Source of the DNA: Chloroflexota bacterium
GTDB taxonomy: Bacteria; Chloroflexota; Anaerolineae; Anaerolineales; Villigracilaceae
DNA: 42,580 nt
Direction: 5' to 3'
Assembly: GCA_024434165.1 (NCBI GenBank)
Contig: QMIW01000041.1
Coordinates: 1 to 42,580, forward strand
This document shows positions 5,979 through 42,474 of this stretch, one piece after another; the first letter of the stretch is position 1, and the number at the start of each line of letters is the position of its first letter. Both the position numbers and the translations under genes were made by a program. The notes under the pieces are model-generated. The model was given only the letters and a program-made list of their open reading frames with translations. It was not told the DNA's origin and did not search any database.

Positions 5979-6788
5979 TCAGAGTGTACCAGACTTTTCC
6001 GACTTCATCGGCTTGCCCGATCCTTTATCCCGCACCATCAGCACTTCCGCCATGATGCTCACGGCGATCTCTTCGGGCGTTTCGGCTTGCAGTTCCAGTC
6101 CCATTGGCGAATGGACTTTGGCGATCAATTTATCGTCCACGCCTTTCTTCTTCAACGCCTTGACGGTTGTCGCCCACCTGCGCTTCGAACCGATGACGCC
6201 GATGTACGCCGCATCGGTGTTGAGCAGGTTGGGCAGACCGAGCGCATCCACACTGGACCCGCGGCTGGTGACGACCAAATAGGTTCTTTTTGTGATTTTG
6301 AGTTGTTCCGCCAGTTTCCCCATCTCCACCGGGTAATATTCATCCGCACCAGGTGTGGCTTCGGGGTTGCAGAATTCCGCGCGGTCGTCGCTGACGGCGA
6401 CGCGGAATCCCAGCCACTTTGCCAAATGGACGACGGCTTTGCCGACGTGCCCTGCGCCGATGACGACGAGGGTTGGGGCAGGAAGGATGGGTTCCACGAA
6501 CACCTCCACCTGACCGCCGCACACGCCGGGGTCGCCGCGTGAGGGGTCAGCCATGTTGTAATGTAAAAGCCGCGGCTCTCCGTCGCTGATCGCCATCCAA
6601 GCTTCGTCCAGCACGCGGTGTTCCAAATCCCCGCCGCCGACCGTGCCAATAAATTTGCCGTCCGGGTAGACGAGCATCTTGCTGCCCACGTGCCGCGGCG
6701 TGGAGCCTTCGCTCTTCACCACCGTGCAAAGGGCAGCGGAGCCGTTGTTTTTTTCGATATCAATTAATGCCTGAAAGATGGATTTCAT
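5979..6788 (-). CDS. XdhC/CoxI family molybdenum-enzyme maturation protein
   Basis: A 269-residue XdhC-type protein. In characterised systems XdhC binds molybdenum cofactor, protects it during sulfuration and delivers it to apo xanthine dehydrogenase. The N-terminal XdhC_CoxI domain (about 1-90) shows SEGSTPRHVGSKMLV and TVGGGDLEHRVLDEA. The C-terminal Rossmann domain (about 110-250) starts LVVIGAGHVGKAVVHLAKW. Start 6788 is chosen over 6836 because homology begins at MKSIFQALIDIE. It lies 16 bp after the HEPN gene on the same strand. Its likely client is the fused Mo subunit at 10754-13771, possibly with the FAD subunit at 21070. Confidence 0.92.
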   Translation of the reverse strand: MKSIFQALIDIEKNNGSAALCTVVKSEGSTPRHVGSKMLVYPDGKFIGTVGGGDLEHRVLDEAWMAISDGEPRLLHYNMADPSRGDPGVCGGQVEVFVEPILPAPTLVVIGAGHVGKAVVHLAKWLGFRVAVSDDRAEFCNPEATPGADEYYPVEMGKLAEQLKITKRTYLVVTSRGSSVDALGLPNLLNTDAAYIGVIGSKRRWATTVKALKKKGVDDKLIAKVHSPMGLELQAETPEEIAVSIMAEVLMVRDKGSGKPMKSEKSGTL

Positions 6789-6804
6789 CGCTAATTTTGT
6801 TTTT

Positions 6805-7194
6805 CTATTTCGTAAGTCCCAAATACTTGCGGGCAAATTTTCGAACTGCCTGGGCTGTCGCTATGGCTTCTTTTGCGCCCTCGATGGCAGGCTGATCACC
6901 AGGATAACGCCTGCGAACTGCGTATTCTGTCAAGTCCACCAATTCCTGCACCACGAGTCCGGTCAGGATGCCCGCTTCATTGCGCATCGTATTTAATGTG
7001 GGGAGGTCATGAGTCTTGGGAAAATCGAAATCTTTCAAGATTAACAGCGCCTTGAGATATTTTTCTGCGCTCTGCTGGGCATGAAAACACGCGCCGGTTA
7101 ACAAAGGCTTTTTCAAGCGAAACAACGCTTTGGCGGCTGAGAAATCCTCCTCTGCCTGGGCGATCCAGGATTTAAGTTCTTCGATGCCGGTCAT
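6805..7194 (-). CDS. HEPN domain protein, partner of MNT nucleotidyltransferase
   Basis: A 129-residue all-helical HEPN (PF05168-type) protein, with the typical CFHAQQSAEKYLKALLI helix and the late VRRRYPGD segment. HEPN proteins paired with MNT nucleotidyltransferases are commonly annotated as toxin-antitoxin modules. This one lacks an obvious Arg-x4-6-His ribonuclease motif, so toxin activity is doubtful and a nucleotide-binding or scaffold role is possible. Its start overlaps the end of the MNT gene by 23 bp, which suggests translational coupling; XdhC follows 16 bp later. Confidence 0.85.
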   Translation of the reverse strand: MTGIEELKSWIAQAEEDFSAAKALFRLKKPLLTGACFHAQQSAEKYLKALLILKDFDFPKTHDLPTLNTMRNEAGILTGLVVQELVDLTEYAVRRRYPGDQPAIEGAKEAIATAQAVRKFARKYLGLTK

Positions 7195-7546
7195 AAAGAA
7201 CTTTTCCCTTTTTGATAATTTCGCGTATGAAGAAGCTGTTGTCTTTTCCGCCTTTCATGGCTTCCTCAACCTCTTTTGGGGTTTTGATAATGATGTCCAC
7301 GGGAAATTGACGGGGATACAGCAGCATGGACGCCGCGCGATGCTTTTCCTTGCGCCTGCCGTTTGTTTCCATAATTATCAGCAGGTCCACGTCGCTGTCG
7401 TGTGTGGGGGTTCCATAAGCGTATGAGCCGAACAATATTATTTTTTCCGGCTGAAGTTCTGACACGATGCGTTCCACCGCCTTCGGAAGTGTTTCCGCCA
7501 CAGGCGGGAAGCCGGTTGGGTTCATCCTGGTCGTAAGTTCGAACAC
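7172..7546 (-). CDS. MNT-type minimal nucleotidyltransferase
   Basis: A 124-residue DNA polymerase beta-superfamily nucleotidyltransferase. The catalytic core GSYAYGTPTHDSDVDLLI (about residues 40-57) has the Gly-Ser motif and the Asp-x-Asp pair, and the third carboxylate is in FPVDIIIKT. In the MntA-HepT system the partner AMPylates the HEPN toxin; whether that happens here is unknown. The chosen start is GTG at 7546, preceded by GAAGGAGAAGCGC; an ATG at 7525 is the alternative. It lies 27 bp after the pyrophosphatase gene and overlaps the HEPN gene, so ppaC-MNT-HEPN-xdhC probably form one transcript. Confidence 0.88.
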   Translation of the reverse strand: MFELTTRMNPTGFPPVAETLPKAVERIVSELQPEKIILFGSYAYGTPTHDSDVDLLIIMETNGRRKEKHRAASMLLYPRQFPVDIIIKTPKEVEEAMKGGKDNSFFIREIIKKGKVLYDRHRRT

Positions 7547-10753: not shown

Positions 10754-13700
10754 TTACTGACGGTGGATCGCCCTCCAGACTCTTTCCGGCGTGGTCGGGA
10801 TGTCATCCACGTTGACGCCGAGGGCGTCCAGAATGGCGTTTCCAACCGCAGGCGCGACCCCGTCCATTGGAATCTCGGCGACGGCTTTCACACCAAACGG
10901 ATGGCTCGGCTCGAACGTCTCGACGAAGATGGTTTCGAGTTCGGGCATTTCATCCGCGCGGAAGATGTGATAGCGGTCAAGGTCGCGTTCGTAAGCCGCG
11001 CCTTTTTCGTCGTAGCGCATCTCTTCGCACACGGCGTAGCCGAGCGCCTGCGTCATGCCGCCTTCGATCTGCCCCGAAGCCGTGAGCGGATTGACAATGA
11101 CGCCCGAATCCACCGCCATCACCAATTTATCCACTGTGACTGCGCCCGTTTCCATATCCACGGTCACTTCGGCGAACTGCGCCGCAAACGGCGGAGGCGA
11201 CACGGGCGAGACGTAACTTGCCACGCCCATGATCTGTTCCTGGTTGTTTTTGTGGAGCGTATCGAGCGCAATCTCCGCCAGGGAAATACTGTCTCCGTTT
11301 GGAGCGATTGCCTTGCGGTCAGCCAGTCGAATGTCGCCAGGTTGAAGGTCAATCACCTGACCTGCGGCTTTCGACTTTTGACTTAGTATCGCTGCCGCGC
11401 GGATTTTGATTCGCTCCGCCGCGATCTGCGCCGCTTTGGTTGCCGCCGTTCCAGAAATGTACGTCGTGGAAGAAGCGTACGCGCCTTTATCGAACGGCGT
11501 GAAATCGGTATCCGACGAATAACAGATGATGTCCTCGACGGGAACGCCCAGCACCTCCGCCGCCATTTGCGCGAGGACGGTATCCGACCCTGTTCCCAGG
11601 TCTGTCGCGCCGACCAGCAGGTTGAACGAGCCGTCGTCATTCATCTTGATGGATGCGCCGCCCATGTCGAGGTAGGGGATCGCCGTTCCCTGCATCACCA
11701 TGGCAACGCCAATGCCTTTGCGCTTGTAGCGCAAACCTTTGGTTTGCGCGCGCAAGTCAGAGACTTGCGCTACGCGCCACTCTTCATTCCCGAACTTCTG
11801 ATCCCAGCCAATTGCCGCCTTGCCCTGCGCCACGCATTGCTCCAACCCGACGGTGTGAATGATTTCAGGCCGCGGCTCGCGCCCTTCGTTCCATGCAGTG
11901 GAGAAGGGATGATACTCGCCAGGGCGGATGGCGTTCTTCAAGCGGAACTCGATCGGGTCGAAGCCCATTGCGCGCGCGATTTTTTCCATGTGACGGTCGA
12001 GGGGCCAATATCCCTGCGGCACGCCGTATCCGCGGAACGCGCCAGCGGGGGGCGTGTTGGTGTAAACCACATCTGCATAGAAGCGGATGTTCGGCGCTTT
12101 GCGATACTCGCCGTCGCCGACATACAACGCCATTGCCTTGTGCCCCGTGTTGCCTGTGACGGTCAGCGCGTGGCAGCCGTACGCGCCCGTATCGGAGAGG
12201 GCGTACATCTCGTTCGCGGTGATCGTCCCGTCCCGCTTCACGCCCGTCTTCATCTTGATTCTCATCGGGTGCCTTGACCTTGCGCCGATGAATTCTTCCT
12301 CTCTCGTGTACTCGTAGATGACGGGTCGTTTGGTGGCGATGGTCAGATGCGCGGGCACGTCTTCCATCAGCACTTCCTGCTTGCCGCCGAAGCCGCCGCC
12401 GATGCGCGGTTTGATGACGCGGATGCGCTTCACGGGCAGACCCAGCACAGGCGCAAGCATTCTTCGGACGTGAAACGGAACCTGCGTGGACGTGCGAATC
12501 ACGAGGCGGTCGTCTTCATCCCAATACGTGACCGCCACGTGCGGTTCGATGCTCACTTGCTGCACCTTCGGCACTTCGTACTCGGCTTCGAAGATTTCGT
12601 CCGCTTCGGCGAAGCCTTTGTTCACGTCACCGATGTCAATGCGGATGTGCGCGGCAAGATTTTTATCGGGGTTCGAGTCGGCAAAGTTGACGTATTCAGG
12701 CTCATCGTGGATTTTGACCGCATCGGGTTTCATCGCCTCGCGCGAATCCAAAATGGCGGGCAGGATTTCATATTCCACGTCAATCAACGTCAATGCCTTC
12801 TCTGCGATTTCAGGAGTCTCCGCCGCGACGAATGCCACGCGGTCTCCGACAAAACGAACCTTGTTATCCAGCGAGAACGAATCCAACGGACCAGGGATCG
12901 GGTCCGACTGTCCTGCTGTGGAATAGACCACGCGCGGAATGTCCTGCCAGGTCAGCACGGCGGCGACGCCCTTCAACGCTTTGGCTTTGCGGGTGTCAAT
13001 GCGTTTGATCCGCGCGTGGGCGTGCGGCGAACGCAGGACTTTCGCATACAACATGCCGCGCATGTCCAAATCTGCGGCGAAGGCGGGTTTACCCTGCACC
13101 AGTTTGATGGCGTCCACCTTCTTTTCGGGCTTGCCGACGGTTTGCCACGTCTGCGTTTCGGGCGTGACGACAACTTTGGGTCGAGTTAAAACTGCGGCGG
13201 AGGGAGAGGCGGTTGATTCCCCCGAAGGAGAATCAGGTTGAGGCGCCCCAAAATCCCAATGAACAGAGGTTACATCAATCGGTTCGTCTCCGCGCATGAC
13301 CGCTGCCGCTTTCATCACCGCCTGGACAGGTTTGAGATACCCCGTGCAGCGGCACAACACGCCCGCAATCGCCTCGCGGACTTCCGCTTCGCTGGGGTTC
13401 GGGTTTTTATCCAGCAGGCTTTTGGCGGCGAGGATTTGCGCGGGCGTGCAGTACCCGCACTGGATCGCGCCCGATTCGACAAATGCTTTTTGCAGGGGAT
13501 GAAGACCATCGGTCTTTCTCCAGCCCTGTTCTGGGTGCTCGCCCAGCGCCTCGATCGTGGCGACGGCGTGACCCTCCGCCTGCGCCGCCAGCATCGAACC
13601 TGCGTTGACGGGTTTGCCATCGAGCAGAACCGTATCCGCGCCCGTCAACCCGTGCTCGTCACCGAACTTCACGCCGTGAAAACCCAATCCGCGCAGGGCG

Positions 13701-13771
13701 GCGAGCAGGGTCGTGGACGGGGGAGCGTCTATGGCGTGTTCCATTCCGTTGATTTTAAGGGTGATGTTCAT
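10754..13771 (-). CDS. Fused Fe-S/molybdopterin subunit, xanthine dehydrogenase family
   Basis: A 1,005-residue molybdenum hydroxylase in which the small Fe-S subunit (about 1-160) and large Mo subunit (about 205-1005) are joined by a Ser/Pro-rich linker. Such enzymes hydroxylate purines or other N-heterocycles with water. The Mo half has GGGFGGKQ (about 458-465), AGAFRGYGVPQ (about 577) and a late Glu in VAEIPMDGVAPAVGNAI. The helical-domain [2Fe-2S] ligands are present: Cys105, Cys108, Cys140 and Cys142. The ferredoxin-like cluster's Cys are gone: VKFGDEHGLTGADTVLLDG has Asp38, Thr43 and Asp46 where Cys are expected, and the fourth site is also lost near Gly58. Residues 667-682 are an in-frame REP insertion. 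The FAD subunit is absent here; one is encoded at 21070-21828. Substrate not determinable. Confidence 0.93.
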   Translation of the reverse strand: MNITLKINGMEHAIDAPPSTTLLAALRGLGFHGVKFGDEHGLTGADTVLLDGKPVNAGSMLAAQAEGHAVATIEALGEHPEQGWRKTDGLHPLQKAFVESGAIQCGYCTPAQILAAKSLLDKNPNPSEAEVREAIAGVLCRCTGYLKPVQAVMKAAAVMRGDEPIDVTSVHWDFGAPQPDSPSGESTASPSAAVLTRPKVVVTPETQTWQTVGKPEKKVDAIKLVQGKPAFAADLDMRGMLYAKVLRSPHAHARIKRIDTRKAKALKGVAAVLTWQDIPRVVYSTAGQSDPIPGPLDSFSLDNKVRFVGDRVAFVAAETPEIAEKALTLIDVEYEILPAILDSREAMKPDAVKIHDEPEYVNFADSNPDKNLAAHIRIDIGDVNKGFAEADEIFEAEYEVPKVQQVSIEPHVAVTYWDEDDRLVIRTSTQVPFHVRRMLAPVLGLPVKRIRVIKPRIGGGFGGKQEVLMEDVPAHLTIATKRPVIYEYTREEEFIGARSRHPMRIKMKTGVKRDGTITANEMYALSDTGAYGCHALTVTGNTGHKAMALYVGDGEYRKAPNIRFYADVVYTNTPPAGAFRGYGVPQGYWPLDRHMEKIARAMGFDPIEFRLKNAIRPGEYHPFSTAWNEGREPRPEIIHTVGLEQCVAQGKAAIGWDQKFGNEEWRVAQVSDLRAQTKGLRYKRKGIGVAMVMQGTAIPYLDMGGASIKMNDDGSFNLLVGATDLGTGSDTVLAQMAAEVLGVPVEDIICYSSDTDFTPFDKGAYASSTTYISGTAATKAAQIAAERIKIRAAAILSQKSKAAGQVIDLQPGDIRLADRKAIAPNGDSISLAEIALDTLHKNNQEQIMGVASYVSPVSPPPFAAQFAEVTVDMETGAVTVDKLVMAVDSGVIVNPLTASGQIEGGMTQALGYAVCEEMRYDEKGAAYERDLDRYHIFRADEMPELETIFVETFEPSHPFGVKAVAEIPMDGVAPAVGNAILDALGVNVDDIPTTPERVWRAIHRQ
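11726..11773. repeat. REP-like double hairpin inside the Mo-hydroxylase gene
   Basis: Forty-eight bases beginning GTA and ending TAC. Two hairpins lie side by side: GCGCAAACC/GGTTTGCGC with loop TTT, then GCGCAAGTC/GACTTGCGC with loop AGA. The length is a multiple of three, and it is read in frame as 16 extra residues (667-682, VAQVSDLRAQTKGLRY) between the conserved stretches before and after it. It shares the GTAG-CTAC ends and the CAAGTC/GACTTG core with the palindromes around the transposase at 13816. Confidence 0.8.
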
Positions 13772-13815: not shown

Positions 13816-14469
13816 CTACAACAGATTGGGATTGATGTAAGTATACGCCCAGTCTTGCCAGTTCTCAACCAATCCCGCCTTGACGGGGTTGTTAGCGATA
13901 TACTCCAAAATTCGCGTAAACTCTTTATCATTCCGCACCACATGATCGTAACTTTCGTGCTGCCAGAATGCACCTTTACGCCCAAGTAATTTTGCGCAGG
14001 CATACCCTGTTCGCCCTTTGAGTAAACGCATGGTATGACTCACGGCGGTGTAGTGTTTTCCATCGCTTAATGGCGGCGGTTCAGGGATGTCCTGTTGATC
14101 TATCAACAGATGACAATGATTACTCATCACGCAATAGGCGTGTAAACGATAGTTGTCGGGATGCAGCGCACGGAGTTCGCGGGTGACAATTTCCGCAAAT
14201 CGTGGTTCTGCCAGCCAGCGCGGACCATCCTTGGGATGATCAAGCAATGCGTCGAATCGAGCGAAGTGACGTTTTTGCGCTTTATAGCGTTCCTCACGCA
14301 GTTCGTTCCCTTTGAATTTTCCAGATAGCGAGCGTTTTTTGTTCTCGTATTCCTCCTTTAGTTTTTTCCAAACCTCGACAGGCAGGCTTCCTGCCAGCCG
14401 AAAGGTGATGAAGTAGGTGGCGTTGGGAAGATGGTAGTGGGGGAGGTTACGCTGGAAGAATTCGCTCAT
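13816..14469 (-). CDS. REP-associated tyrosine transposase (RAYT, Y1/HUH family)
   Basis: A 217-residue single-strand DNA transposase-like protein of the IS200/IS605-related RAYT group, which is thought to mobilise or maintain REP palindromes. The HUH motif is in MSNHCHLLI. The catalytic Tyr is probably in GAFWQHESYDHVVRND, followed by the family's ILEYIANNPVKAGLV. The N-terminus PHYHLPNATYFITFRL is also typical. Start 14469 (MSEFFQR) is preferred over 14490, because the longer frame would begin inside the upstream palindrome. Palindromes lie directly on both sides (13783-13810 and 14482-14509), so gene and REPs form a REPtron-like unit. It appears intact. Confidence 0.92.
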   Translation of the reverse strand: MSEFFQRNLPHYHLPNATYFITFRLAGSLPVEVWKKLKEEYENKKRSLSGKFKGNELREERYKAQKRHFARFDALLDHPKDGPRWLAEPRFAEIVTRELRALHPDNYRLHAYCVMSNHCHLLIDQQDIPEPPPLSDGKHYTAVSHTMRLLKGRTGYACAKLLGRKGAFWQHESYDHVVRNDKEFTRILEYIANNPVKAGLVENWQDWAYTYINPNLL

Positions 14470-14481
14470 AAGTTCGATTGC

Positions 14482-14509
14482 GCAGAGCAAGTCTATAGAC
14501 TTGCTCTAC
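14482..14509. repeat. REP palindrome, upstream side of the transposase gene
   Basis: A 28-base palindrome with one mismatch in its outer arms. The 24-base core (14484-14507) is perfect and shares the CAAGTCTATAGACTTG centre with the 13783 copy. It begins directly at the stop codon of the M16 peptidase (14510) and ends 12 bp before the transposase start. Confidence 0.85.
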
Positions 14510-20804: not shown

Positions 20805-21073
20805 CGGTAAATATCCTCTTCATCCTCCACCGCAGGCGGCGGAGAGGCGAGGTCGTAATTCCATACGCCGCTCTCTTTCATCGCCAAGGCGACGTCATAC
20901 GGTGTGGGTTGGAATTGGTAATTCTGTTTCTCCAGAAATTCGAGGATCAGTTTATGCGGCGGTCTTTCGACCTTGAAACTTTTCTGGACGCGGTTGAGAA
21001 AGTATTTGGCGCTTTCGTTCGAGATTTGAAATATCCGCGCGATCTCTTCGAAGGGCTTGATTTTGTCCTTCAT
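20801..21073 (-). CDS. 90-residue protein of unknown function in Mo-hydroxylase FAD operon
   Basis: Not recognised as a known family. The start at 21073 forms an ATGA overlap with the FAD-subunit stop and the end forms another with the dehydrogenase, so three genes are tightly coupled. The N-terminal two thirds look helical, with FEEIARIFQISNESAKYFL, which could be a helix-turn-helix (inference only). The C-terminus (SPPPAVEDEEDIYR) is acidic and Pro-rich. The tight packing argues that the gene is real and works with its neighbours. The longer frame to 21271 antisense-shadows the FAD gene. Confidence 0.7.
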   Translation of the reverse strand: MKDKIKPFEEIARIFQISNESAKYFLNRVQKSFKVERPPHKLILEFLEKQNYQFQPTPYDVALAMKESGVWNYDLASPPPAVEDEEDIYR

Positions 21074-21828
21074 TTCAAGGCTTCCAGCGCGCGCCTCGCC
21101 AGCACGGACGCCATTTCCATGCGGTATTCGGCGGAGGTCCACTCGTCGCCGGCTTCGTGACAGGCGTTGCGGGCGGCTTCCTGAATCCCTTCGGCTTCGG
21201 TGCCATCCATGGCGAGCGCGGGCGATTTGCCAAAACCTCCGAGCGCCAACCGCGTGCGGCCCGAGTTCCATTGCGCCAGCGCCGCGCAGACGATGGGTTT
21301 ATCTGACGGCGTGCGGGAGACGTATTCAAAAGCAAATTTCACATGGAGCGGAATGGTGATTTGCGTAATCAATCCCTTTGGTCGAGTGAGCAAATACTCT
21401 CCCGCACCGATCACCGACGACTGATTACTGACCCCTGATGACTGATTGCTGATCACTGTGATCTTCGCGTCCAATGCCAGCAGTGCCGTTGTAAAAGTCG
21501 AGCGTCCGTCACATGCCGCAATCGTGCCTGCAACTGTCGCCACATTGCGGAGATTCAACGGCGCTTCGAGTTTGAGCGCGGTTTTCAGCGCAGCGGGGCA
21601 ATGCTCGGAATCAAGCAGCGCCTGCAGGGTGCAGGTCGCGCCGATTTGCAAATCATTGCCGCTGACGCTGAGCGAATCCAGCCCAAGGGCTTGTAAATCC
21701 ACAACGGCGACAGGATCAGCCGCCGCCTTGGAAAGAAACGTCCCGCCTCCGAGGGGGACGGTATTCGGTTGAGTCAGAAGCGAGAGGGCTTCGTCCAATG
21801 TTCGGGGTCGGTGATAGGTTGAAATCAT
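21070..21828 (-). CDS. FAD-binding subunit of a molybdenum hydroxylase (CoxM/XdhB type)
   Basis: A 252-residue FAD subunit of the xanthine dehydrogenase/CO dehydrogenase family. It begins MISTYHRPRTLDEALSLL. The FAD pyrophosphate-binding loop resembles PLGGGTFLSKAAADP and the second FAD motif is NLRNVATVAGTIAACDGRS. It is a little shorter than the usual 280-300 residues. It could pass electrons from the fused Mo subunit at 10754-13771, though that gene is about 7 kb away. A 53-base ATCAGTAATCAGT-type repeat inserts a Ser/Asn/Gln-rich segment at about residues 125-140. CGGAGGCACTGC precedes the ATG and a TATAAT lies at 21851-21856. Confidence 0.9.
   Translation of the reverse strand: MISTYHRPRTLDEALSLLTQPNTVPLGGGTFLSKAAADPVAVVDLQALGLDSLSVSGNDLQIGATCTLQALLDSEHCPAALKTALKLEAPLNLRNVATVAGTIAACDGRSTFTTALLALDAKITVISNQSSGVSNQSSVIGAGEYLLTRPKGLITQITIPLHVKFAFEYVSRTPSDKPIVCAALAQWNSGRTRLALGGFGKSPALAMDGTEAEGIQEAARNACHEAGDEWTSAEYRMEMASVLARRALEALK
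21409..21461. repeat. Degenerate TGATTACTGA short-period repeat inside FAD-subunit gene
   Basis: Imperfect units such as CTGATTACTGA, CTGATGACTGA and TTGCTGATCACTG. They are translated in frame as VISNQSSGVSNQSSVIG, between the conserved strand KIT and the following GAGEYLL. Confidence 0.7.
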
Positions 21829-33336: not shown

Positions 33337-34338
33337 TCAGGCTTGGGCGAAGGTGTCAATCAGCAGTTTGAAATTGCCGCCTACGGGGTAGAGAATGGGG
33401 CAGGTGCAGCCGCGCTTCTTGTACTCTTCCACTTTGGCTTTCGCTTCGGCGGGCGTGCCGGAGGCGGTGATCTTGTGAACGAGATCATCGGGCACGAGGT
33501 TCTTTGCCTTCATCACCTGTTCCTTTGTGGCGGGCCACCCCAAAATGGATTGAATCTCCTGCACCACTTCGGTGGAGACGTTCGACGCTTTGGCGATGTG
33601 CGGTTGTTGGGCAATGTACTGGCAGAGGAGCATCTTGGTGTAGTCAATGGCTTTGTCGTGGTCTTCATCCACCGAGCAGACGATCAACTGCGGGCGGTCG
33701 AAGTCCTCCATTTTGCGCCCCGATTTCTTCAAGCCCTTCTCCAGCAGTTCCATCGCGCGGTCGTTGTATTCCGGGGCGACGCAGTAATTGAGCACCGCGC
33801 CGTCTGCCACCTCGCCGGTCAGTTCCATCATCTGGTCGCCGGTTGCGCCAATCATAATGGGCACGTTGCGCGGCTCGCGCCGACCATAGACCACGTCCAA
33901 TTCGATGCCGTTGACGTGGATGAACTCGCCTTCGAATGTGACGCGCTCCATGTTGAGCAGTTTCTTCATCACCAGGACCGTTTCCTTCATGGCGGTCAGC
34001 GGCTTCTTGCGGTCAATGCCCACGTTCTTCGCCAGCGGGTCCCACCATGCGCCAAGCCCGCAAATGATGCGGTTCGGGGCGAGGTCGTCGAGGGTGAGGA
34101 ACGTAGCGGCGAGCAGGCCGATATTGCGAGTCCAGTTGTTGATCACGCCGGAACCGACCTTGATGTGGTTGGTCACGGCGGCATAGGCAGCCATTGGCAC
34201 AATTGCGTCGCGTACCAAACGGCTCTCCGCCTGCCACACGGCTTCGAAACCTTTTTCCTCCGCGTATTTTGCATAGTCCAGTCCGTCGCGCAGGTCGTGC
34301 GAGTCTTGCAGGTACAGGGCAACACGCTCTTTGGTCAT
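33337..34338 (-). CDS. Luciferase-fold (LLM) oxidoreductase, probably F420-dependent
   Basis: A 333-residue TIM-barrel protein of the bacterial luciferase-like family, similar in layout to F420-dependent methylenetetrahydromethanopterin reductase and glucose-6-phosphate dehydrogenase types. Recognisable parts are [20 protein letters not shown], the [12 protein letters not shown] strand-loop and the glycine-rich [16 protein letters not shown]-dependent relatives exist, but position directly downstream of cofC-cofD favours F420. The start at 34338 has AAGGAGAATGTC upstream, which supports it over 34386. Substrate unknown. Two terminators follow. Confidence 0.88.
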
Positions 34339-34424
34339 GACATTCTCCTTCGGTGGAATAAAAAAATTTTGCCACAGGTTCTGCAAACTTCATAGGGGTT
34401 TGCCTGCCTGTGGCAATGGAATGT

Positions 34425-35033
34425 CTATACTTTTGATGCTTCCACTTTGCGTATCAACTCCAGGTCTTCGGGGTCGTCCAGGTCGAGTCCGAGCGATGGC
34501 AGTTCGACCACTTCCAGCCTTGCGCCCGATTGGATCGCCCGTTCGCAATGCCGGTGGAACGATCCTTCGCCGAACTCATACTCGATCTGCCCGGCGGGCA
34601 CCATCAGCAGGGCATTGGTCCCTTTGTGGTGTCTATCCGGCGCGATTACGACAACCGGCGGTTTCGCGGCGCGGTCAATCAGCGCAAGCACATCGTCGGC
34701 GGTAAGCAGCGGCAGATCCACCGGCAGGACCAGCACTCCCTGCGTGGCGTGGACCTGCGCCACCACCGAAGCCCGCGCAAGCGCGGTATTCAGGTGCGGC
34801 TGCCCGTCTTCCTGAACCGTTTTCGCGCCGTGGTTGCGCGCAATCGTCAGCGCGTGTGAGTCGCGGCTGACCACCAATATTTTATCCAACTCTTTCAAGC
34901 CGGAGAGTGTCCGAAGCGTTCGTTCCAACAACTCTTCATTCAACGCCGCCCGCTCTTCTTCCGTCAGCGCCCCCGCCAGACGAGACTTCCCGCGCCGCAG
35001 GGGTTTTACAGGGACAATCGCCCAAAGTGACAT
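34425..35033 (-). CDS. cofC: 2-phospho-L-lactate (or PEP) guanylyltransferase CofC/FbiD
   Basis: Activates 2-phospholactate or phosphoenolpyruvate with GTP, giving the GDP-linked donor used by CofD in F420 synthesis. It is 202 residues, typical for CofC. The nucleotide-binding start MSLWAIVPVKPLRRGKSRLA and the metal-binding VLVLPVDLPLL are present, followed by VVIAPDRHHKGTNALLM. It begins two bases after the cofD stop (GGGAGTTTATAA also provides its ribosome-binding site), so the two are co-translated. Whether it uses phospholactate, phosphoenolpyruvate or phosphoglycerate cannot be told from sequence alone. Confidence 0.94.
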   Translation of the reverse strand: MSLWAIVPVKPLRRGKSRLAGALTEEERAALNEELLERTLRTLSGLKELDKILVVSRDSHALTIARNHGAKTVQEDGQPHLNTALARASVVAQVHATQGVLVLPVDLPLLTADDVLALIDRAAKPPVVVIAPDRHHKGTNALLMVPAGQIEYEFGEGSFHRHCERAIQSGARLEVVELPSLGLDLDDPEDLELIRKVEASKV

Positions 35034-35035
35034 GG

Positions 35036-36019
35036 TTATAAACTCCCAATAAGGCGTAATACTTCATTCGCGAGTTGCACACGATCCTGTTCACGGTTCA
35101 TAAGTGTATCAGTAACAAGCGTCCTTATGCCCAAATTTTTAATTTCACTTTCGATAGCCGAATCCGCATTGTCTAACACGAAACCCGTCAGGACGGTGTG
35201 GTAATGCCTTGCCACTGCCAGCGCCGATGGCTCGATTCCCAATTCGGCGTACATCTTTGCGGCAGGACCTTTCACCGTCTGACCGGCGATGATGGGGGAG
35301 ACCGCCACAACGGGCTTGTCTATGGTTTTGACGACTTTGAGGATGGGGTCAATGCTCACCCAGGGATTCGACGGGCAAATGACCACCGCCTCCGCAGACT
35401 CAAGCGCCTCGCGCACGCCGGGGGCTGGTTCTGCGGCTTCGACTCCGTCGAACCGAAAGCCTTTGACCTTCGGCTCGCAGCGCCTGTGGACAAAATACTC
35501 CTGGAACGCCAATTCACCCTCGTCTGTATCCACCATCGTCCGCACCGGAGAATCGGACATGGGCAGCACTTTCTGCGAAATGCCCCACGCCTTGCAAAAA
35601 TCGCCTGTAATTTGTGAGAGCGTTTGCCCTTCCTTCAACCTTCTTGTCCGTTCGAGGTGGGTGGCAAGGTCCTGATCGCCGAGACGGAACCACGCCGGTC
35701 CGCCGAGTCTCTCGATATTGGCAATGGCGTTCCAGGTCTCGCCCGCCCGCCCCCAGCCGGTTTCGGGGTTTGCCAGACCTGCAAGCGTGTAACAAACCGT
35801 ATCGAGGTCGGGACAGATGTACAAGCCGAGATGCTCGAAATCGTCGCCCGTGTTGACGATGACGGTCAAATCTTCCGGCGGCAGGACTTGGGCGAGCCCG
35901 TGCGCCAGTTTTGCGCCGCCGACACCGCCTGCCAGAGCGACAAGGCGGCGGTGGATGATGGACGGTGGACGGTTTGGGTTGTCAGAAAATTTCGCTGCCA
36001 TATTCTGCCGGTTCTTCAC
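35036..36019 (-). CDS. cofD: 2-phospho-L-lactate transferase CofD/FbiA
   Basis: Transfers the phospholactyl (or phosphoenolpyruvyl) group to the deazaflavin Fo. It is up to 327 residues. The core starts [20 protein letters not shown] (about residue 26), with [20 protein letters not shown] and [12 protein letters not shown] following as in the CofD family. A GTG start at 36019 overlaps the stop of the truncated upstream frame (GTGA). An ATG at 36001 is the alternative. The 20 or so residues before the core, including [13 protein letters not shown], come from a short-period repeat and look dispensable. Together with cofE and cofC it forms the second half of the F420 pathway; the Fo synthase genes are outside the window. 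Confidence 0.95.
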
Positions 36020-36803: not shown

Positions 36804-36866
36804 ATGGATGGTGGACGATGGACCATAGACCGTTCTTTGTCATCGTCCACTGTCCATTGTCTTTTA
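36804..36866. repeat. Degenerate short-period repeats around the F420 genes
   Basis: ATGGATGGTGGACGATGGACC, written as shorter units, and ATCGTCCACTGTCCATTGTC flank each other just after the cofE stop. Smaller relatives are at 36198-36226 (before the nitroreductase end) and 35951-35978 (inside the 5' end of cofD). Confidence 0.6.
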
Positions 36867-37631
36867 TCGGAACATATCCATATCTTTGGGGCGGATGAGT
36901 TCCGCGAGCGAGCCTTCGCCAAGCGGATAGGGAAACCCGCGCACGTGGACGATGGGCGTGCCTTCGGCGGCTTGACCCATCACCAGCGAGGCGGCGGCGG
37001 CGAGTTCATCCGCCGCGGCGACGATGGTGGCTTTGAGGGTGTAGCCGAACAGGTCGCGCCAGCCGCGTTCATCCACGAGGGCGGGAATGCCGCTCAAGCC
37101 GATGCAGATGCCGACCGTGCCGTTGCGCCAGGCGCGCCCGTGTGAATCGATCACCATCACGCCGACGGTTCTGCCTGCCCGCCGTTTGATTTGTTCGCGC
37201 AGTTCCTTTGCGGATTTATCGGGGTTTTCCGGCAGAAGCAAAACATACTCTTCGTTTGAGCTGCCTTCGCCCATTACGTTGGAATGGTCAATGCCTGCAT
37301 TGGCGCAGACAAAGCCGAGTTTGTGCTCTACCACGATCACCCCTTTGCGCGAGCGGAGCACTTCGCTGCTTTCGCGCAGCATCAATTCGACGAGGCGCGG
37401 GTCTTTTTCGGTCTGTTCGCCGAGCTCGATGGCGCGCTGCGAGGGCTGGATGCCCGCCAGGTTGACCATGCGCCCCTCCGCCTTGCTGACGATCTTCTGC
37501 GCGAGGACGAGGATGTCGCCATCCTGCAAATCCAGGCTCGTTTCGCGCAATGATTTAAGAAGAATATCCGCCAGGTCGTCACCGTGGCGGATGAGGGGAA
37601 TCCTTTGGAGCGGGGTGAGTACAAGGGACAA
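36864..37631 (-). CDS. cofE: Coenzyme F420-0:L-glutamate ligase CofE
   Basis: Adds the gamma-linked glutamate residues of F420 using GTP. It is 255 residues, the normal single-domain length. Family motifs are DGDILVLAQKIVSKAEGRMV (about 37-56), VIVVEHKLGFVCANAGIDHSN and DSHGRAWRNGTVGICIGLSG, which includes the metal- and GTP-binding loop. Unlike mycobacterial FbiB it has no fused nitroreductase; a broken nitroreductase gene follows. The order cofE, (nitroreductase), cofD, cofC, LLM oxidoreductase on one strand suggests a single transcription unit interrupted by decay and repeats. Confidence 0.95.
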   Translation of the reverse strand: MSLVLTPLQRIPLIRHGDDLADILLKSLRETSLDLQDGDILVLAQKIVSKAEGRMVNLAGIQPSQRAIELGEQTEKDPRLVELMLRESSEVLRSRKGVIVVEHKLGFVCANAGIDHSNVMGEGSSNEEYVLLLPENPDKSAKELREQIKRRAGRTVGVMVIDSHGRAWRNGTVGICIGLSGIPALVDERGWRDLFGYTLKATIVAAADELAAAASLVMGQAAEGTPIVHVRGFPYPLGEGSLAELIRPKDMDMFR

Positions 37632-37879: not shown

Positions 37880-38557
37880 TTACGCTTTCTTTACTCCTGT
37901 GATCTTTATCCCTGCAAAGGTGGAGCCGTATTTTTTGTTGATGCCGATCAACACGCTGGTGAGTCCCTCGACCACCACCGAATTCTCGATCGGTCCGGCG
38001 TCCCAGCCGGTTAACCCGGCGGCTTCGACGAGTTTGACGACCTCGGTGCGGGCATTCTTGCTTGTGCCGGTCACCAGCACATCGCATTCCAGCTCGGAGT
38101 TTTCCAGCAGGTGTTCGTGCGAGATGTTCTGGAAGGCGGTGCACACCTCCACGCCTTCGCCGAGGATTTGCTTCGCCTCCTGCGCGGCGGACCCGGCGGC
38201 GGGCATTTGCACCGTGGAGATCTTCGGCGGGACGAGCGGCACGGTCACATCCACGAGGATTTTGCCCTTCAATTCGTCCCGGACCGATTCAAGCGTATCA
38301 CGATGCGCGGAATACGGCACGGTCAACACGGCGATATTCGCCTCCTTCGCCGCCTGCTGGTTGCTCATTCCAGCGACGGTGGTTCCATCCCGGAGCATTT
38401 CCTGAATTTCCTTTGCCGCCGCGGCGGCTTTTTCTTCCGAACGCGAACCGATGATGACGTGATACCCCGCGCGCGCCCAGCGATAGGCAAGTCCTTTCCC
38501 CTCCCTTCCGGTCCCGCCCAGCACCGCGATGGTTAACATAAGCTGTTCGTCTTTCAT
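37880..38557 (-). CDS. npdG: F420H2:NADP+ oxidoreductase NpdG
   Basis: Moves hydride between F420H2 and NADP+, linking the F420 pool to NADPH. It is 225 residues, a normal length. The N-terminal Rossmann motif is LTIAVLGGTGREGKGLAYRW, followed by IIGSRSEEKA (the NADP-selecting Ser-Arg). The C-terminal domain has GPIENSVVVEGLTSVLIGIN. CGGAGACTTC precedes the ATG at 38557. It follows the SsnA-like gene by 37 bp on the same strand and precedes cofE by 248 bp. Confidence 0.94.
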   Translation of the reverse strand: MKDEQLMLTIAVLGGTGREGKGLAYRWARAGYHVIIGSRSEEKAAAAAKEIQEMLRDGTTVAGMSNQQAAKEANIAVLTVPYSAHRDTLESVRDELKGKILVDVTVPLVPPKISTVQMPAAGSAAQEAKQILGEGVEVCTAFQNISHEHLLENSELECDVLVTGTSKNARTEVVKLVEAAGLTGWDAGPIENSVVVEGLTSVLIGINKKYGSTFAGIKITGVKKA

Positions 38558-38594: not shown

Positions 38595-39947
38595 CTACAG
38601 GACCTTCGCCGCTTCCTCTTCGTACTTCTTCCAGACGCGCGGAGCGATTTCCCTGGCGCGCGCGGCGATCTCCGCTTCGTCGAGCGTGAGCAGTTCGCGG
38701 TTTTTCATCAGGAACTTCCCGGCGACCATCGTGCTGGCAACCATGCTCTGCTGGAAGCCGAAGAGGATGTGCCAGGGCAGGTTGCCTTCGGTGAGCGGCG
38801 TGTGCGGGTGATAGTCCACGAAGATCAAATCCGCCGCTGCGCCGGGGACGATCTGCCCGATGGGTGCAGCGGGGAAGAACATGCCCGCGAGCGCGGCGTT
38901 GTTGTAAATTGCCATTTGTTGAACGTCATAACCGCCCATGCGGCGCGGGTCGCGGTGTTCGACTTTGTGGAGGAGGTAGGCGGTCTTCCACTCGTCCCAC
39001 ATGGAGTTGGTAAAGCCGTCGTTGCCCAGACAGACCTTGATTCCCATGCGCATCATGGATTCGATCTGCGCCGCGCCCACACCGTTGTTCATGTTCGAGC
39101 GCGGCTGGTGCGAAAGCCATGTGCCGGTCTCCTTGAGAATTTCCATCTCACGCGCGTCGAAATGGACGCCGTGCGCGGCGATGGTGTTGGGTCCGAGGAT
39201 GTTGTGCTTTTGCAGGCGGTCAATCACGCGCATGCCGCTTTTTTGCAGGCTGTCGTATTCGTCCGCTTCGTGCTCCGCCGTGTGGATGTGGAAGCCCGTC
39301 CCTGCGGGGGCGGCGGCGCGGCAGGCTTGCAGGGTGGCGCCTGAAAGCGTCAGGCTGGCGTGCAGCCCAAAGGTCCCGGCAAGACGCGGATGCGGGTCTG
39401 CGGCGAGGCGTTTGAGGAAGCGCACGTTCTCGCTGATTCCCGCGCTGGCTTTGTCAATTCCATCGCGGTCGGTCACTTCGTAGCAAAGCACGCCGCGCAG
39501 ACCGCTTTTATCCACGGCGTCGGCGATGATGTCGAGCGAGCCGTCAATGTAATTGGGGGAGGCGTGGTGGTCAATGAGCGTGGTCGTGCCGTGTTTGATC
39601 GCGTCCACAAGGCAGACGAGCGCAGAGTAACGAATTGCCTCCGCATCCAGCGAACGGTCAAGGGGCCACCACAACTTCTGCAGAATCTCCGGGAAGTCCT
39701 TCGGCGCGGGTCCGGGAATCGCCATGCCGCGCGCGAACGCGCCGTAGAAATGTGTGTGCGCGCAGATTCCGCCGGGCATCACGTACTGACCATTCGCGTC
39801 CACCGGCTTGGTTTTGGGATGTTTCGCTGTGAGCGACCTGGTTGTGCCGATTTCCTGGATGTGCCCGTCCTCGATGTAGATGGCGTGATTGGCAAGCACC
39901 CGGTTTGGGGTTTCCCAAGTGATGACGTTTGCGTTTGTAATTAACAT
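38595..39947 (-). CDS. ssnA: SsnA-like aminohydrolase (amidohydrolase superfamily)
   Basis: A 450-residue metal-dependent amidohydrolase resembling E. coli SsnA (about 442). The metal-binding HTHF follows MPGGICA. Later features are KLWWPLDRSLD, IDHHASPNYIDGSLD, HIHTAEHE, SNMNNGVG and LGNDG, with the last Asp completing the active site. SNMNN and the LWW-LDR and DHHASP motifs are close to SsnA and its relatives, which are often encoded beside molybdenum hydroxylases. That fits the Mo, FAD and XdhC genes elsewhere in the window. Deamination of guanine or a related heterocycle is possible but not shown. It starts one base after the NACHT stop (TAGC ATG), so translation is probably coupled. Confidence 0.88.
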   Translation of the reverse strand: MLITNANVITWETPNRVLANHAIYIEDGHIQEIGTTRSLTAKHPKTKPVDANGQYVMPGGICAHTHFYGAFARGMAIPGPAPKDFPEILQKLWWPLDRSLDAEAIRYSALVCLVDAIKHGTTTLIDHHASPNYIDGSLDIIADAVDKSGLRGVLCYEVTDRDGIDKASAGISENVRFLKRLAADPHPRLAGTFGLHASLTLSGATLQACRAAAPAGTGFHIHTAEHEADEYDSLQKSGMRVIDRLQKHNILGPNTIAAHGVHFDAREMEILKETGTWLSHQPRSNMNNGVGAAQIESMMRMGIKVCLGNDGFTNSMWDEWKTAYLLHKVEHRDPRRMGGYDVQQMAIYNNAALAGMFFPAAPIGQIVPGAAADLIFVDYHPHTPLTEGNLPWHILFGFQQSMVASTMVAGKFLMKNRELLTLDEAEIAARAREIAPRVWKKYEEEAAKVL

Positions 39948-39948
39948 G

Positions 39949-42474
39949 CTAACTCAATCCATACTGGCTGGGATGTGGAAGTTTGACGCCGGACATGCCG
40001 ATTTCCCAAAGGGTGTTGAACGCGGCTTCGCGCAGTTCGGGCTCATCCATGTACATCGCTTCATAGATTCGCGAGATCACGCCTTCGTTCGGGGTGAATT
40101 TCAGGTAGGGCAGGGCGGCAAGACGGTTGTCTGGGTCTTCGCCTTTGAGGGCAAGCAGGAGGATGTCGGTTGCCGGGACGCCGGGGGATACGCCCATGCC
40201 TTGTTTTGCAGCAAACTCGACCAGCCAGGGCGATTCATGCGGCGCTTTGAGTTTGCCGGGCGCAAGCAGTTCCATGTGCGCCTTTGCGTCCAGCACTTCG
40301 GCGGCGGCGTTGCGGACGATCCACTGGTCGTCTTCGATCTGAGCCTTCTTAAGCAATTCCACCGCCCACGGTTCGCGGATTCGCCCGAGCCCATACACGA
40401 CCGCGCGTCGCAGGAGGATGTCGTTCAGCGTAATGCCGTCCTTCAGCATGGCATGACCCTCCACCGGGTCGTTTGCCAGCGCTTCCCCGGCGGCGCGGCG
40501 GATTTCTTCATCTCCGCTGAGCAGGGTATGAGCGACGATTTCGAGCGCTTCGGTCGTGCCAATGGCAACCAGCGCCATGCAGGCGGCGCGGCGCACGCCC
40601 AGGCTTGGGGCGTTCAACGCTCCTTTCAAGGTATTTATCGCTTTCGTGTCGCGGATTGCGCCTGAGCCGAGAACGGATAGCTGCACCAGTTCAAATGACA
40701 TGGTGGCGGCAAACTGGCGGAACAAGGTTGCGGCAGCCGGGTCGTTGCTGTAAACAAACGCCGCCATGGCTTGTCCGCGCAGGCTGAGGGGGATGCCTTC
40801 CATTTGCAGAATGCCAGCCAGCGCGCTGAAGATTTTTCCGCGCCAGGGGGCGTTTTTGGGAGCGTCTCTCAGCCAGCGCGCGGCGGTAAACAGCGGACGC
40901 TGCATGGGCAGGCGCGAATATTCCAAAAGGGATTGCACCAATTTGCTGGCATCGCCATGCACGGAGAAATACCGCATGGCAAGATGTTTTCCCAGCCAGT
41001 CGTGCTGTTCGAGGAGGGTTTCTTCGGCGTTGTAGTTTGTCAGCGCCTGACCGGCAAGATAACCGGCAAAAACGGGATGCAGGAAACGCATCCGGTTGTT
41101 CGGGTGGGAAACGAGCAAGCCGCTGGATGCCATTTTTCCCAGCAAGCCGCTCGAGGGCGTGGAAACCTTTTCGACCTTTTTCTTCCCTTTTTTGGGCTTG
41201 GTCTCCTCTTTTGTTTCTTCTTCGACGCCTTCGCCTTCGGCTGCGTCTTCTGCGATCTCGAACGATTTGACCCAGGCGCGCGCCTTGCGAGGATCGAACA
41301 CGGGCTGGGCGCTGACGATCACCTGCATGGCAAGCGTTTCGAGCGCGGCGACCGGCGTGTTGACGGGCGCGACCCGCCGGATGTGCGTGGCGATTGCCTC
41401 CAACACGTGCGGACCGAGACTGTCGCCCGCGTACGCGCCCCAGACCTTCAGGGTCAACTCAAGGGGAGATAAATTCACATTGTCGGCGCTCAGCCATGTG
41501 TTAAGCAGAAGCGGGTCCACCTGTTCAGGACCGGTCTGCGCCCAGGCTTCCATCGCAACGGTCTGCGACCACAACTGTCCCCACTTTTCGATGAACGCCA
41601 GGTTCTCACGCGCCGTCCAGGCGCACAAGGCGAGCGGCGCAAAACCAAGCGGAATCAATCCATCCAGATATTCGGGCGTGCCCGTTGTGACGATGCGTGT
41701 TTTTGGGTGGGTTTGCAGGAGCAATTTAAAGTATTCGGTAACGACCTGCTGTTCGTCGGGGGTGATTTCGTCGTAGCCATCCACCAGCAGGAGGGCGTTT
41801 TCGTTTTTGAAGGTGTTTTGGATGAAACTCGTTAATCGTCCGTAATCGAACGCGCCCACATGCTCGGCGGCGGATTCGATCAACGGGTTGAGTAGATTCT
41901 TGACATCCTTGACCGGGAGGTTCAAATCGGCGACATGGACGAGAAACGGGACCGCCTCCTTCATTGCCCCCAGACTCTCGCTTCGATTCGACGCCAGGCT
42001 TGCGAGGTGAGCCAGAGCCACCGTCTTCCCGACGCCGGGTTGACCGATAATGACGATGTTGGCATTGCCGGAGATTGCCTGCGGCAGGGTGAGCGTCTGC
42101 GGTTTGTAGATGGCGGCGATTTCGGGCCAGGCAGGCAGATAGGGCAGGGTTTGTGTGATGGTGTCTTCGAATTTGGGCGGTGTGCCGGGTTCGACCCTGG
42201 GCGGCGGCGCAAGGAGCAGCGGCTCGAGGATGATTTCATCCAGCGCGAAAAGCGGCGCGGCGAGATGCATGCCTTGCGCGCGGCGGAGCGTGGCGCGGCG
42301 ATGATTCTCCTCCACGGTGTTGGTTTTGCGGCTTTGGGCGGCTTCACGCTGTTCGCGCCAGCTTTCGCGCAGTTCGTTCCACAGCGGGCGGGCGCGCGTG
42401 ATGATGACCCAAATGATGATCCCGGCGGCGAAACCGACGAAGAAGGAGAACGGGTCAATGGCGAAGGAAAACAT
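39949..42474 (-). CDS. Membrane-anchored NACHT NTPase with HEAT-like repeats
   Basis: An 841-residue STAND-type protein. One transmembrane helix lies at about 8-26, followed by a basic segment, then a NACHT domain: Walker A GQPGVGKT (144-151), Walker B LLLVDGYDEI (228-237). A Lys/Glu-rich linker (about 430-455, EETKEETKPKKGKKKVEK) and a long helical-repeat region (about 565-841) follow, with HEAT/PBS-lyase-like units such as SLGVRRAACMALVAIGTTEA and DEEIRRAAGEALANDPVEGH. NACHT proteins act as switches, some in anti-phage defence, but no effector domain is seen. It overlaps nothing, lies 7 bp after the zinc-ribbon gene, and is coupled to ssnA. Function unknown. Confidence 0.85.
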   Translation of the reverse strand: MFSFAIDPFSFFVGFAAGIIIWVIITRARPLWNELRESWREQREAAQSRKTNTVEENHRRATLRRAQGMHLAAPLFALDEIILEPLLLAPPPRVEPGTPPKFEDTITQTLPYLPAWPEIAAIYKPQTLTLPQAISGNANIVIIGQPGVGKTVALAHLASLASNRSESLGAMKEAVPFLVHVADLNLPVKDVKNLLNPLIESAAEHVGAFDYGRLTSFIQNTFKNENALLLVDGYDEITPDEQQVVTEYFKLLLQTHPKTRIVTTGTPEYLDGLIPLGFAPLALCAWTARENLAFIEKWGQLWSQTVAMEAWAQTGPEQVDPLLLNTWLSADNVNLSPLELTLKVWGAYAGDSLGPHVLEAIATHIRRVAPVNTPVAALETLAMQVIVSAQPVFDPRKARAWVKSFEIAEDAAEGEGVEEETKEETKPKKGKKKVEKVSTPSSGLLGKMASSGLLVSHPNNRMRFLHPVFAGYLAGQALTNYNAEETLLEQHDWLGKHLAMRYFSVHGDASKLVQSLLEYSRLPMQRPLFTAARWLRDAPKNAPWRGKIFSALAGILQMEGIPLSLRGQAMAAFVYSNDPAAATLFRQFAATMSFELVQLSVLGSGAIRDTKAINTLKGALNAPSLGVRRAACMALVAIGTTEALEIVAHTLLSGDEEIRRAAGEALANDPVEGHAMLKDGITLNDILLRRAVVYGLGRIREPWAVELLKKAQIEDDQWIVRNAAAEVLDAKAHMELLAPGKLKAPHESPWLVEFAAKQGMGVSPGVPATDILLLALKGEDPDNRLAALPYLKFTPNEGVISRIYEAMYMDEPELREAAFNTLWEIGMSGVKLPHPSQYGLS

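Follow-up and report, generated by a model that had tools for sequence, protein, structure and literature searches.

A probable Chloroflexota counterpart of Escherichia coli XdhD lacks the ligands of its FAD-side [2Fe-2S] cluster

A pair of [2Fe-2S] clusters is regarded as standard equipment of molybdenum (Mo) hydroxylases, and a whole clade described here is without one of them. We analysed a 42,580-nt stretch of DNA from a Chloroflexota bacterium (contig QMIW01000041.1; hereafter the window) and the product of its open reading frame (ORF) at 10754-13771 on the minus strand, an XdhD-type enzyme with fused iron-sulfur (FeS) and Mo domains (hereafter the window enzyme). Four of the eight cluster cysteines of the family are present, leaving ligands for one of the two clusters by which the xanthine oxidase family is recognised. 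The ORF and the alignments agree with the initial annotation that the four cysteines on the side of the flavin adenine dinucleotide (FAD) subunit are replaced, by Asp38, Thr43, Asp46 and Gly58, and the alignments likewise agree that the second cluster (Cys105, Cys108, Cys140 and Cys142) and the Mo site are intact. We take the missing cluster to be the one usually named Fe/S II, next to FAD, and the kept one to be Fe/S I, next to Mo. Our favoured reading, held with moderate confidence, is that the window enzyme is the Chloroflexota counterpart of Escherichia coli XdhD, a urate reductase that has lost its FAD-side cluster and in which electrons would make one long jump from FAD to the Mo-side cluster. 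It is most likely one station in a repeated loss of clusters within the XdhD group.

Conservation of the ligand replacement

The Pfam matches in the window enzyme at E <= 0.001 were Fer2_2, Ald_Xan_dh_C and MoCoBD_1/2; the ferredoxin-like Fer2 domain was not found at this threshold. GGGFG, RGYG, the catalytic Glu and a gene for an FAD subunit, by which Mo hydroxylases are also recognised, are all present. To place the replacement among relatives, genome contigs were scanned and the best 80 of more than 80 existing loci were taken. Seventy-eight of these were readable at the first three ligand positions, 76 with D-[ST]-D-x and two (L080 and L082) with C-C-C-C. L080 and L082 have all four FAD-side Cys at 74% identity to the window enzyme, and since relatives this close still carry all eight Cys, the loss of the FAD-side cluster is derived. 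All eight are present, too, in another Mo hydroxylase (contig C63, locus L001) that the genome of the window encodes and whose ligands could be read.

Wider sampling of the phylum, in which 101 of 400 genomes had a match at E <= 1e-120, gave 153 distinct rows of at least 900 residues once 22 rows that were shorter or repeats and 36 exact duplicates had been removed. Of the 153, two were out of frame and one was unreadable at its N-terminus; without these three, the 150 scored rows comprised 97 without the FAD-side ligands only, 42 with eight Cys, ten without both sets (both-lost) and one without the Mo-side set only. D38 and D46 were invariant in all 97 of the first group. A change from Cys to Asp requires two base changes. 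This pattern is far beyond chance. When the window clade was defined as the rows with Asp at position 38, E. coli excluded, it had 101 members, and 97 of these kept all four Mo-side Cys. The residues of the Mo site GGGFG (458-462), GTG (726-728), E966 and E629 were unchanged in 97/97 sequences that had lost the FAD side, in 10/10 both-lost sequences and in the one that had lost the Mo side, while RGYG was invariant in the 97 and altered in one both-lost row (Q for R). GTG was kept in 25, E966 in 36 and E629 in 30 of the 42 eight-Cys rows, part of which are distant and some of which are possibly misaligned or of other function.

Selection was estimated from the ratio of nonsynonymous to synonymous substitution rates (dN/dS) in 217 pairs with Mo-domain dS < 1.2, drawn from 78 sequences that take in the eight-Cys L080 and L082 and the both-lost L077; the pairs are not independent. 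The median was 0.174 for residues 1-75, the emptied domain (210 pairs), 0.075 for residues 80-160, the kept-cluster domain (196 pairs), 0.099 for the Mo domain (217 pairs) and 0.51 for the linker at 165-205 (115 pairs). The emptied ferredoxin-like domain is thus constrained, somewhat less than the kept-cluster domain. These values, set against that of the linker, and the retention of the Mo-side Cys in 97/101 members suggest that the emptied and the kept FeS domains both still matter.

Because D38 and D46 are shared by 97/97 sequences and the emptied domain is under purifying selection, we read the window-type replacement as that of a conserved subclass rather than as decay. The initial annotation had proposed a real subclass on the regularity of the substitution in one protein, and the observation is right and stronger than was stated there; the contrary case that it raised, of a decaying copy among homologues with Cys, does not apply. 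A decaying or misread gene is extremely unlikely. An in-frame stop did occur in three near full-length orthologues among the matches listed (one each in genomes G102, G096 and G005), and dN/dS of the emptied domain was about twice that of the kept domain. Nevertheless, key Mo-site residues were invariant, the three domain medians ranged from 0.075 to 0.174, and a homologue at E <= 1e-60, paralogues counted, was present in 150 of 152 genomes of the family. The shared replacement and the dN/dS values rule out decay or misreading for the clade as a whole. As a separate observation, the first ~48 residues of xdh in G102 (loci L009/L089) were unreadable, being out of frame or interrupted, and the sequence was 94% identical outside them, as would be left by a sequencing error or by recent decay.

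An AlphaFold model of the window enzyme (predicted local distance difference test, pLDDT, 79.8; predicted template modelling score, pTM, 0.83) retained the family fold, and its best whole-chain match in Foldseek was the Desulfovibrio aldehyde oxidoreductase (1sij, 1dgj). We considered whether the relay has been rebuilt, with Asp38, Ser/Thr43 and Asp46 as ligands of a different metal or of an atypical cluster. The invariance of D38 and D46 and the presence of Asp at both places in E. coli XdhD are consistent with this, as is the Asp ligand that occupies the third position in E. coli SdhB. Against it, position 43 can be Ala (L130), position 58 can be G, A, V, S or N, a second both-lost lineage reads S-T-A-D, and model confidence in the loop is low (pLDDT of about 67 over residues 31-40). 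A rebuilt relay is therefore very unlikely.

Repeated cluster loss in the XdhD group

The loss of the other cluster in relatives is the more surprising part of the observation. The relatives sampled were from Chloroflexota, E. coli and a few plasmids. A quick tree of 75 rows was built from the Mo domain only, with the N-terminal part omitted, the D-[ST]-D-G rows thinned to 15 and the eight-Cys rows at 90%, and E. coli XdhA as outgroup; long branches were flagged at XdhD and its neighbours, the placement of which is unsure. On this tree the FAD-side cluster required a minimum of four changes and the Mo-side cluster a minimum of five. A tree constrained to group the 29 Asp-type rows, among them L081 and four both-lost rows, was slightly better (p-AU, approximately unbiased test, 0.588), which makes a separate FAD-side loss in L081 unneeded, and the FAD-side cluster was probably lost once in the window clade. 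As one loss suffices for this clade, three FAD-side losses remain, in the window clade, in the S-T-A-D lineage (L180-L184) and in E. coli XdhD.

Within the window clade, the Mo-side ligands have also gone in a small branch made up of L077 and of genomes G036-G039, which belong to one genus; the positions read S-C-D-E in L077 and L133 and G-Y-S-A in L126 and L129. L128 (G038), the sister of L133, has kept the ligands. E. coli XdhD reads D-A-D-S on the FAD side and S-N-S-D on the Mo side, and its first 165 residues are without Cys. A search of plasmids for XdhD relatives gave one close relative outside E. coli, from Cetobacterium; this nearest sampled relative has all eight ligands, and the ligand loss in E. 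coli XdhD looks independent. XdhD is not a peculiarity of K-12: at least 80% of xdhD was present in 5130 of 5426 E. coli genomes, with all matches at >= 95% identity (the ligands were not read in each). A mirror-image loss was seen in the single sequence L174 (8011-10941, minus strand), which reads C-C-C-C at the FAD-side positions and S-D-S-E at the Mo-side ones.

We are evenly divided on whether the FeS wire between FAD and Mo has become dispensable in the XdhD group of the xanthine oxidase family. On this reading its FAD-side ligands disappeared on three or more occasions and its Mo-side ligands repeatedly, with the order reversed in one sequence, and the Mo site and, mostly, the FAD subunit were retained. 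If the wire is dispensable, urate dehydroxylation follows a route outside the textbook Mo-FeS-FeS-FAD chain, E. coli included. The staged series in close relatives, with eight, four, one or zero ligand Cys, makes the electron route testable.

Relation to E. coli XdhD and the route of electrons

We take E. coli XdhD (YgfN) to be the closest characterised protein to the window enzyme. The two are 35% identical end to end over 1036 columns and share the fused FeS-Mo architecture at similar length, the active-site Glu, an FAD subunit of the YgfM kind and SsnA in the gene set. In contrast, XdhD has lost the ligands of both clusters whereas the window enzyme lacks the FAD-side ones only, and the partner reductase is YgfK in E. 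coli and a coenzyme F420 (F420)-dependent enzyme in the window set. RefSeq names XdhD a 'Mo/Fe-S-binding subunit'. According to excerpts of Li et al. 2025 (PubMed Central, PMC, PMC12507026), purified XdhD with a band taken for YgfM converted urate to yanthine with reduced nicotinamide adenine dinucleotide (NADH), and no yanthine was seen in a strain without xdhD. The same excerpts propose Glu606 of XdhD as the specificity residue, a role that is a prediction, and model XdhD-YgfM in the classical arrangement. In an excerpt of PMC7191737 XdhD is described as an oxidase without an FAD-binding domain, and in one of the Percudani commentary (PMC12990295) the electron donor of the clostridial counterpart is listed as unknown. 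Missing Fe-S ligands of XdhD or its relatives are unmentioned in the excerpted texts of PMC12507026, PMC2997495, PMC7191737, PMC3958847, PMC2276186 and PMC12990295, and the excerpts of the open-licence PMC literature on XdhD, YgfM, yanthine and lost cluster ligands held no statement of them.

Since the window contains the Chloroflexota form of the reductive uric acid gene set (Table 1) and the window enzyme shares Glu606 with E. coli XdhD, the enzyme is most likely a urate dehydroxylase that acts in a reductive, oxygen-free breakdown of uric acid, and it probably belongs to the very pathway known from E. coli. We infer substrate, direction, donor and long jump for the window enzyme, and propose the following sequence of events. 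The enzyme would remove the C6 oxygen of uric acid in a Mo-dependent reaction that gives yanthine (2,8-dioxopurine), the first step of the pathway; yanthine would then be reduced by an F420-dependent luciferase-like protein, after which SsnA would open the ring. The YgfM-like FAD subunit would most likely accept hydride from NAD(P)H or reduced F420 (F420H2), and electrons would leave FAD in a single long jump to the Mo-side cluster that is still present, and so reach Mo(VI). The ferredoxin-like domain would stay as a structural part, with two fixed Asp at the former Cys 1 and Cys 3. Because the enzyme probably works reductively, the question is one of electron entry and not of exit, and the other electron exit suggested in the initial annotation is one option only.

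A partner replacing the FAD subunit, for which that annotation had advised looking, was not found in the loci examined. Of the 50 loci that extended 9 kb or more upstream of xdh, 40, including the eight-Cys L080, had a YgfM-like FAD gene there, and the retention of this gene rules out such a replacement for the window clade. The FAD gene was found in 48 of the best 80 loci, always upstream and on the same strand, and within 250 bp in seven. Its best NCBIfam model was TIGR03312 (YgfM), below cut-off, and two Gly at positions 28-29 were invariant in 30 aligned members. Two further candidates for bridging the gap were rejected. A separate FeS subunit supplying the missing cluster would require a surplus of Fer2_2, and the window's own genome holds three Fer2_2, three FAD and three Mo matches, each kind on one and the same set of three contigs. 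Acquisition of a Trp/Tyr hopping chain along with the loss is not apparent, F36 being the only aromatic column diagnostic of the window type in residues 1-169. Among individual loci, the FAD gene of L130 (5304-6014), which was outside that alignment of 30 members, is without the GGG motif and stands beside a window-type xdh (D-A-D-G); in the paralogous loci L117 and L118 the FAD subunit is without the GGGT motif, and the Mo protein of L117 keeps eight Cys, an erosion in the opposite sense.

For a rough estimate we assumed the distances of bovine xanthine oxidase and a tunnelling rule, which place FAD ~18-22 angstrom from Fe/S I and would allow ~1-100 electron transfers per second, a rate that would suffice for a slow enzyme; on the same assumptions, electrons passing from FAD to Mo with no cluster in between would move far too slowly. 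By this estimate a long jump can account for the window enzyme and not for the both-lost lineages. These would need either direct reduction at Mo, or transhydroxylation, or a differently built complex.

We therefore weighed a scheme in which the Mo centre needs no internal wire and takes up its electrons at the site itself. The donor would be either a second purine, hydroxylated as urate is dehydroxylated (intermolecular transhydroxylation), or a small hydride carrier (NADH, F420H2) that gains access through the substrate funnel, and the clusters would be free to be lost. Such a scheme would fit the loss of both sets of ligands in three separate groups, E. coli XdhD included, the retention of GTG, E966 and E629 in 10/10 both-lost sequences and the reverse-order loss in one sequence (L174), which keeps the FAD-side cluster only. 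It sits poorly with the retention and conservation of the FAD subunit and with the Mo-side cluster kept in 97/101 of the window clade, and we know of no example of such chemistry in this enzyme family. Excerpts of PMC12507026 bear on both sides: XdhD is reported active with no NADH-free control described there, and a band taken for YgfM co-purifies with XdhD and NADH was supplied in the assay. Searches of the open-licence PMC literature for transhydroxylation or lost cluster ligands in the family gave nothing on point. Taken together, we consider reduction at the Mo site itself unlikely for the window enzyme.

A further alternative is an ordinary oxidising Mo hydroxylase whose electrons exit from the kept cluster to an external carrier, bypassing FAD. 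The kept Mo-side cluster of the window clade agrees with this, and the best fold match, the aldehyde oxidoreductase of D. gigas, works without an FAD domain according to excerpts of PMC2997495 and PMC3958847. The Desulfovibrio enzymes resemble the window enzyme in whole-chain fold and in the fused FeS-Mo architecture, and lack an FAD domain (PMC3958847, excerpt); they differ in having an aldehyde substrate and eight Cys in the alignment, and the D. gigas enzyme has all eight. The retained FAD subunit and the place of the locus within the reductive uric acid gene set lead us to regard an oxidising enzyme as distinctly unlikely.

Several results weigh against a urate reductase with a long FAD-to-cluster jump. 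Such a jump leaves E. coli XdhD and the other both-lost lineages unexplained, and a single mechanism for the whole group would need to be different. A FAD gene was not found in the stretches of 10 of the 50 loci with at least 9 kb upstream, and on contig C148 of the own genome the FeS gene lies ~6 kb from the Mo gene, so that their pairing is presumed. The selenium-metabolism-linked models TIGR03313 and TIGR03311 were the second- and sixth-best NCBIfam matches of the window enzyme, both far under cut-off (680 bits against 1102 and 443 against 830), and the score for NF043082 (oxidative XdhA) matched that for TIGR03313 and likewise fell short of the model's own cut-off. For the terminal enzyme YgeX, the own genome gave no match at E <= 1e-20. 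F420 genes and the luciferase-like gene also accompany eight-Cys relatives; they do not explain the loss and were rejected as its cause. To our knowledge, there is no biochemistry for any Chloroflexota member.

For E. coli there are two possibilities: the published NADH route operates in the absence of the known relays, or electrons are supplied to the enzyme by other means. The published activity of XdhD, which is without all eight ligands, makes crossing of the gap directly testable, and as a gut enzyme that removes uric acid it is of medical interest.

Gene set of the window and its relatives

The window carries genes for F420 synthesis and reduction, for a luciferase-like F420-dependent oxidoreductase (LLM) and for SsnA together with the genes of the Mo hydroxylase (Table 1). 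In loci L172 and L169 these form the compact order ssnA-npdG-cofE-cofD-cofC-LLM-fad-xdh-ppase-xdhC. The window has the same order on one strand, spread over ~34 kb with other genes interspersed, and L062 has the same genes from ssnA through xdh. The XdhC-type gene was present in 41 of the 48 loci having at least 9 kb downstream. The best NCBIfam matches of LLM were models of F420-dependent LLM proteins, below cut-off.

Table 1. Coordinates in the window of the Mo hydroxylase, its ligand positions and the associated genes
Feature	Position	Strand	Basis
XdhC/YqeB-type Mo cofactor maturation protein	5979..6836	-	37% to E. coli YqeB; XdhC models below cut-off
XdhD-type Mo hydroxylase, fused FeS and Mo domains	10754..13771	-	1005-aa ORF; Pfam; homology to E. 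coli XdhD
Glu629, aligned with E. coli XdhD Glu606	11885..11887	-	Alignment
Cys140 and Cys142, ligands of kept Mo-side cluster	13346..13354	-	Alignments
Cys105 and Cys108, ligands of kept Mo-side cluster	13448..13459	-	Alignments; Fer2_2
Gly58 in place of cluster Cys 4	13598..13600	-	G/A/S/V/N across the 97
Asp46 in place of cluster Cys 3	13634..13636	-	Asp in 97/97
Thr43 in place of cluster Cys 2	13643..13645	-	Ser/Thr in 96/97, Ala in 1 (L130)
Asp38 in place of cluster Cys 1 (FAD-side cluster)	13658..13660	-	Alignment; Asp in 97/97 lacking only the FAD-side cluster
FAD subunit, YgfM-like	21070..21828	-	FAD_binding_5; 30% to E. coli YgfM
LLM, candidate yanthine reductase	33337..34386	-	Bac_luciferase; linked to xdh in relatives
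CofC, F420 synthesis	34425..35033	-	TIGR03552 over cut-off
CofD, F420 synthesis	35036..36019	-	TIGR01819 over cut-off
CofE, F420 synthesis	36864..37631	-	TIGR01916 over cut-off
NpdG, NADPH-dependent F420 reductase	37880..38557	-	TIGR01915 over cut-off
SsnA, ring-opening aminohydrolase, reductive uric acid pathway	38595..39947	-	TIGR03314, NF005540 over cut-off; 37% to E. coli SsnA

In genomes G037 and G038 the position that LLM has in L172 and L169, between cofC and fad, is taken by YgfK (44% to its E. coli counterpart over >1000 residues), the enzyme that reduces yanthine in E. coli. LLM was not found in the examined stretches of G037 and G038, the rest of both genomes not having been searched for it. 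This replacement of LLM by YgfK supports LLM as the yanthine reductase of the window set. Excerpts of PMC12507026 state that YgfK and UacX are missing from Chloroflexota, and describe Chloroflexota ssnA clusters with a luciferase-family, putatively F420-dependent gene. The window resembles these clusters in having ssnA and such a gene; in contrast to the present analysis, the excerpts contain no mention of missing ligands and report no assay of a Chloroflexota XdhD.

The stated lack of YgfK in Chloroflexota has exceptions, since YgfK scored over cut-off in 4/29 genomes. With fragments in G039 and G036, true YgfK was present in six of the 29. By type it accompanied 5/8 both-lost, 1/10 counted as window type, 0/10 eight-Cys and 0/1 Mo-side-lost genomes, in a count in which the ligands of G033 were not read and those of G008 and G014 were assigned from L059 and L058, whose coordinates match. 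YgfK as the cause of cluster loss was set aside as a lead, the positives being two groups of related genomes only. No YgfK over cut-off was found in the own genome or in 30 relatives. In the own genome YgeY exceeded its cut-off, and its neighbours were YgeW-like and YqeA-like genes; YgeX matched at E <= 1e-20 in only 2 of 18 genomes, neither over cut-off.

SelD was over cut-off in 28 of 31 genomes, the own genome included (G000:C50:39449-40378). Because each SelD gene has one in-frame TGA, SelD may serve selenocysteine, and the protein itself probably contains this residue. In L182 and L184 the both-lost xdh is followed by YqeB-like and YqeC-like genes; YqeB and YqeC are described as accessory markers of selenium-dependent Mo hydroxylases in an excerpt of PMC2276186. 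Proteins like dihydroorotate dehydrogenase (DHO_dh) are encoded next to xdh genes that have lost both clusters in L180 (10442-11509, minus strand) and L181 (5617-6738, plus strand), and ~1.8 kb upstream of an xdh with intact clusters in L173 (5629-6642, plus strand). They are perhaps yanthine reductases of the UacX kind. No FAD gene was recognised next to xdh in these three loci.

Among the other genes of the window, the one directly upstream of xdh (13816-14490, minus strand) encodes what we take to be a transposase associated with repetitive extragenic palindromic (REP) elements. Two small genes between xdhC and the conserved phosphatase gene (6805-7546, minus strand) presumably form a HEPN/nucleotidyltransferase pair of the toxin-antitoxin type. 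At 39949-42474 on the minus strand lies the gene for an 841-residue NACHT protein with HEAT repeats, which we take to be of a kind seen among defence NTPases.

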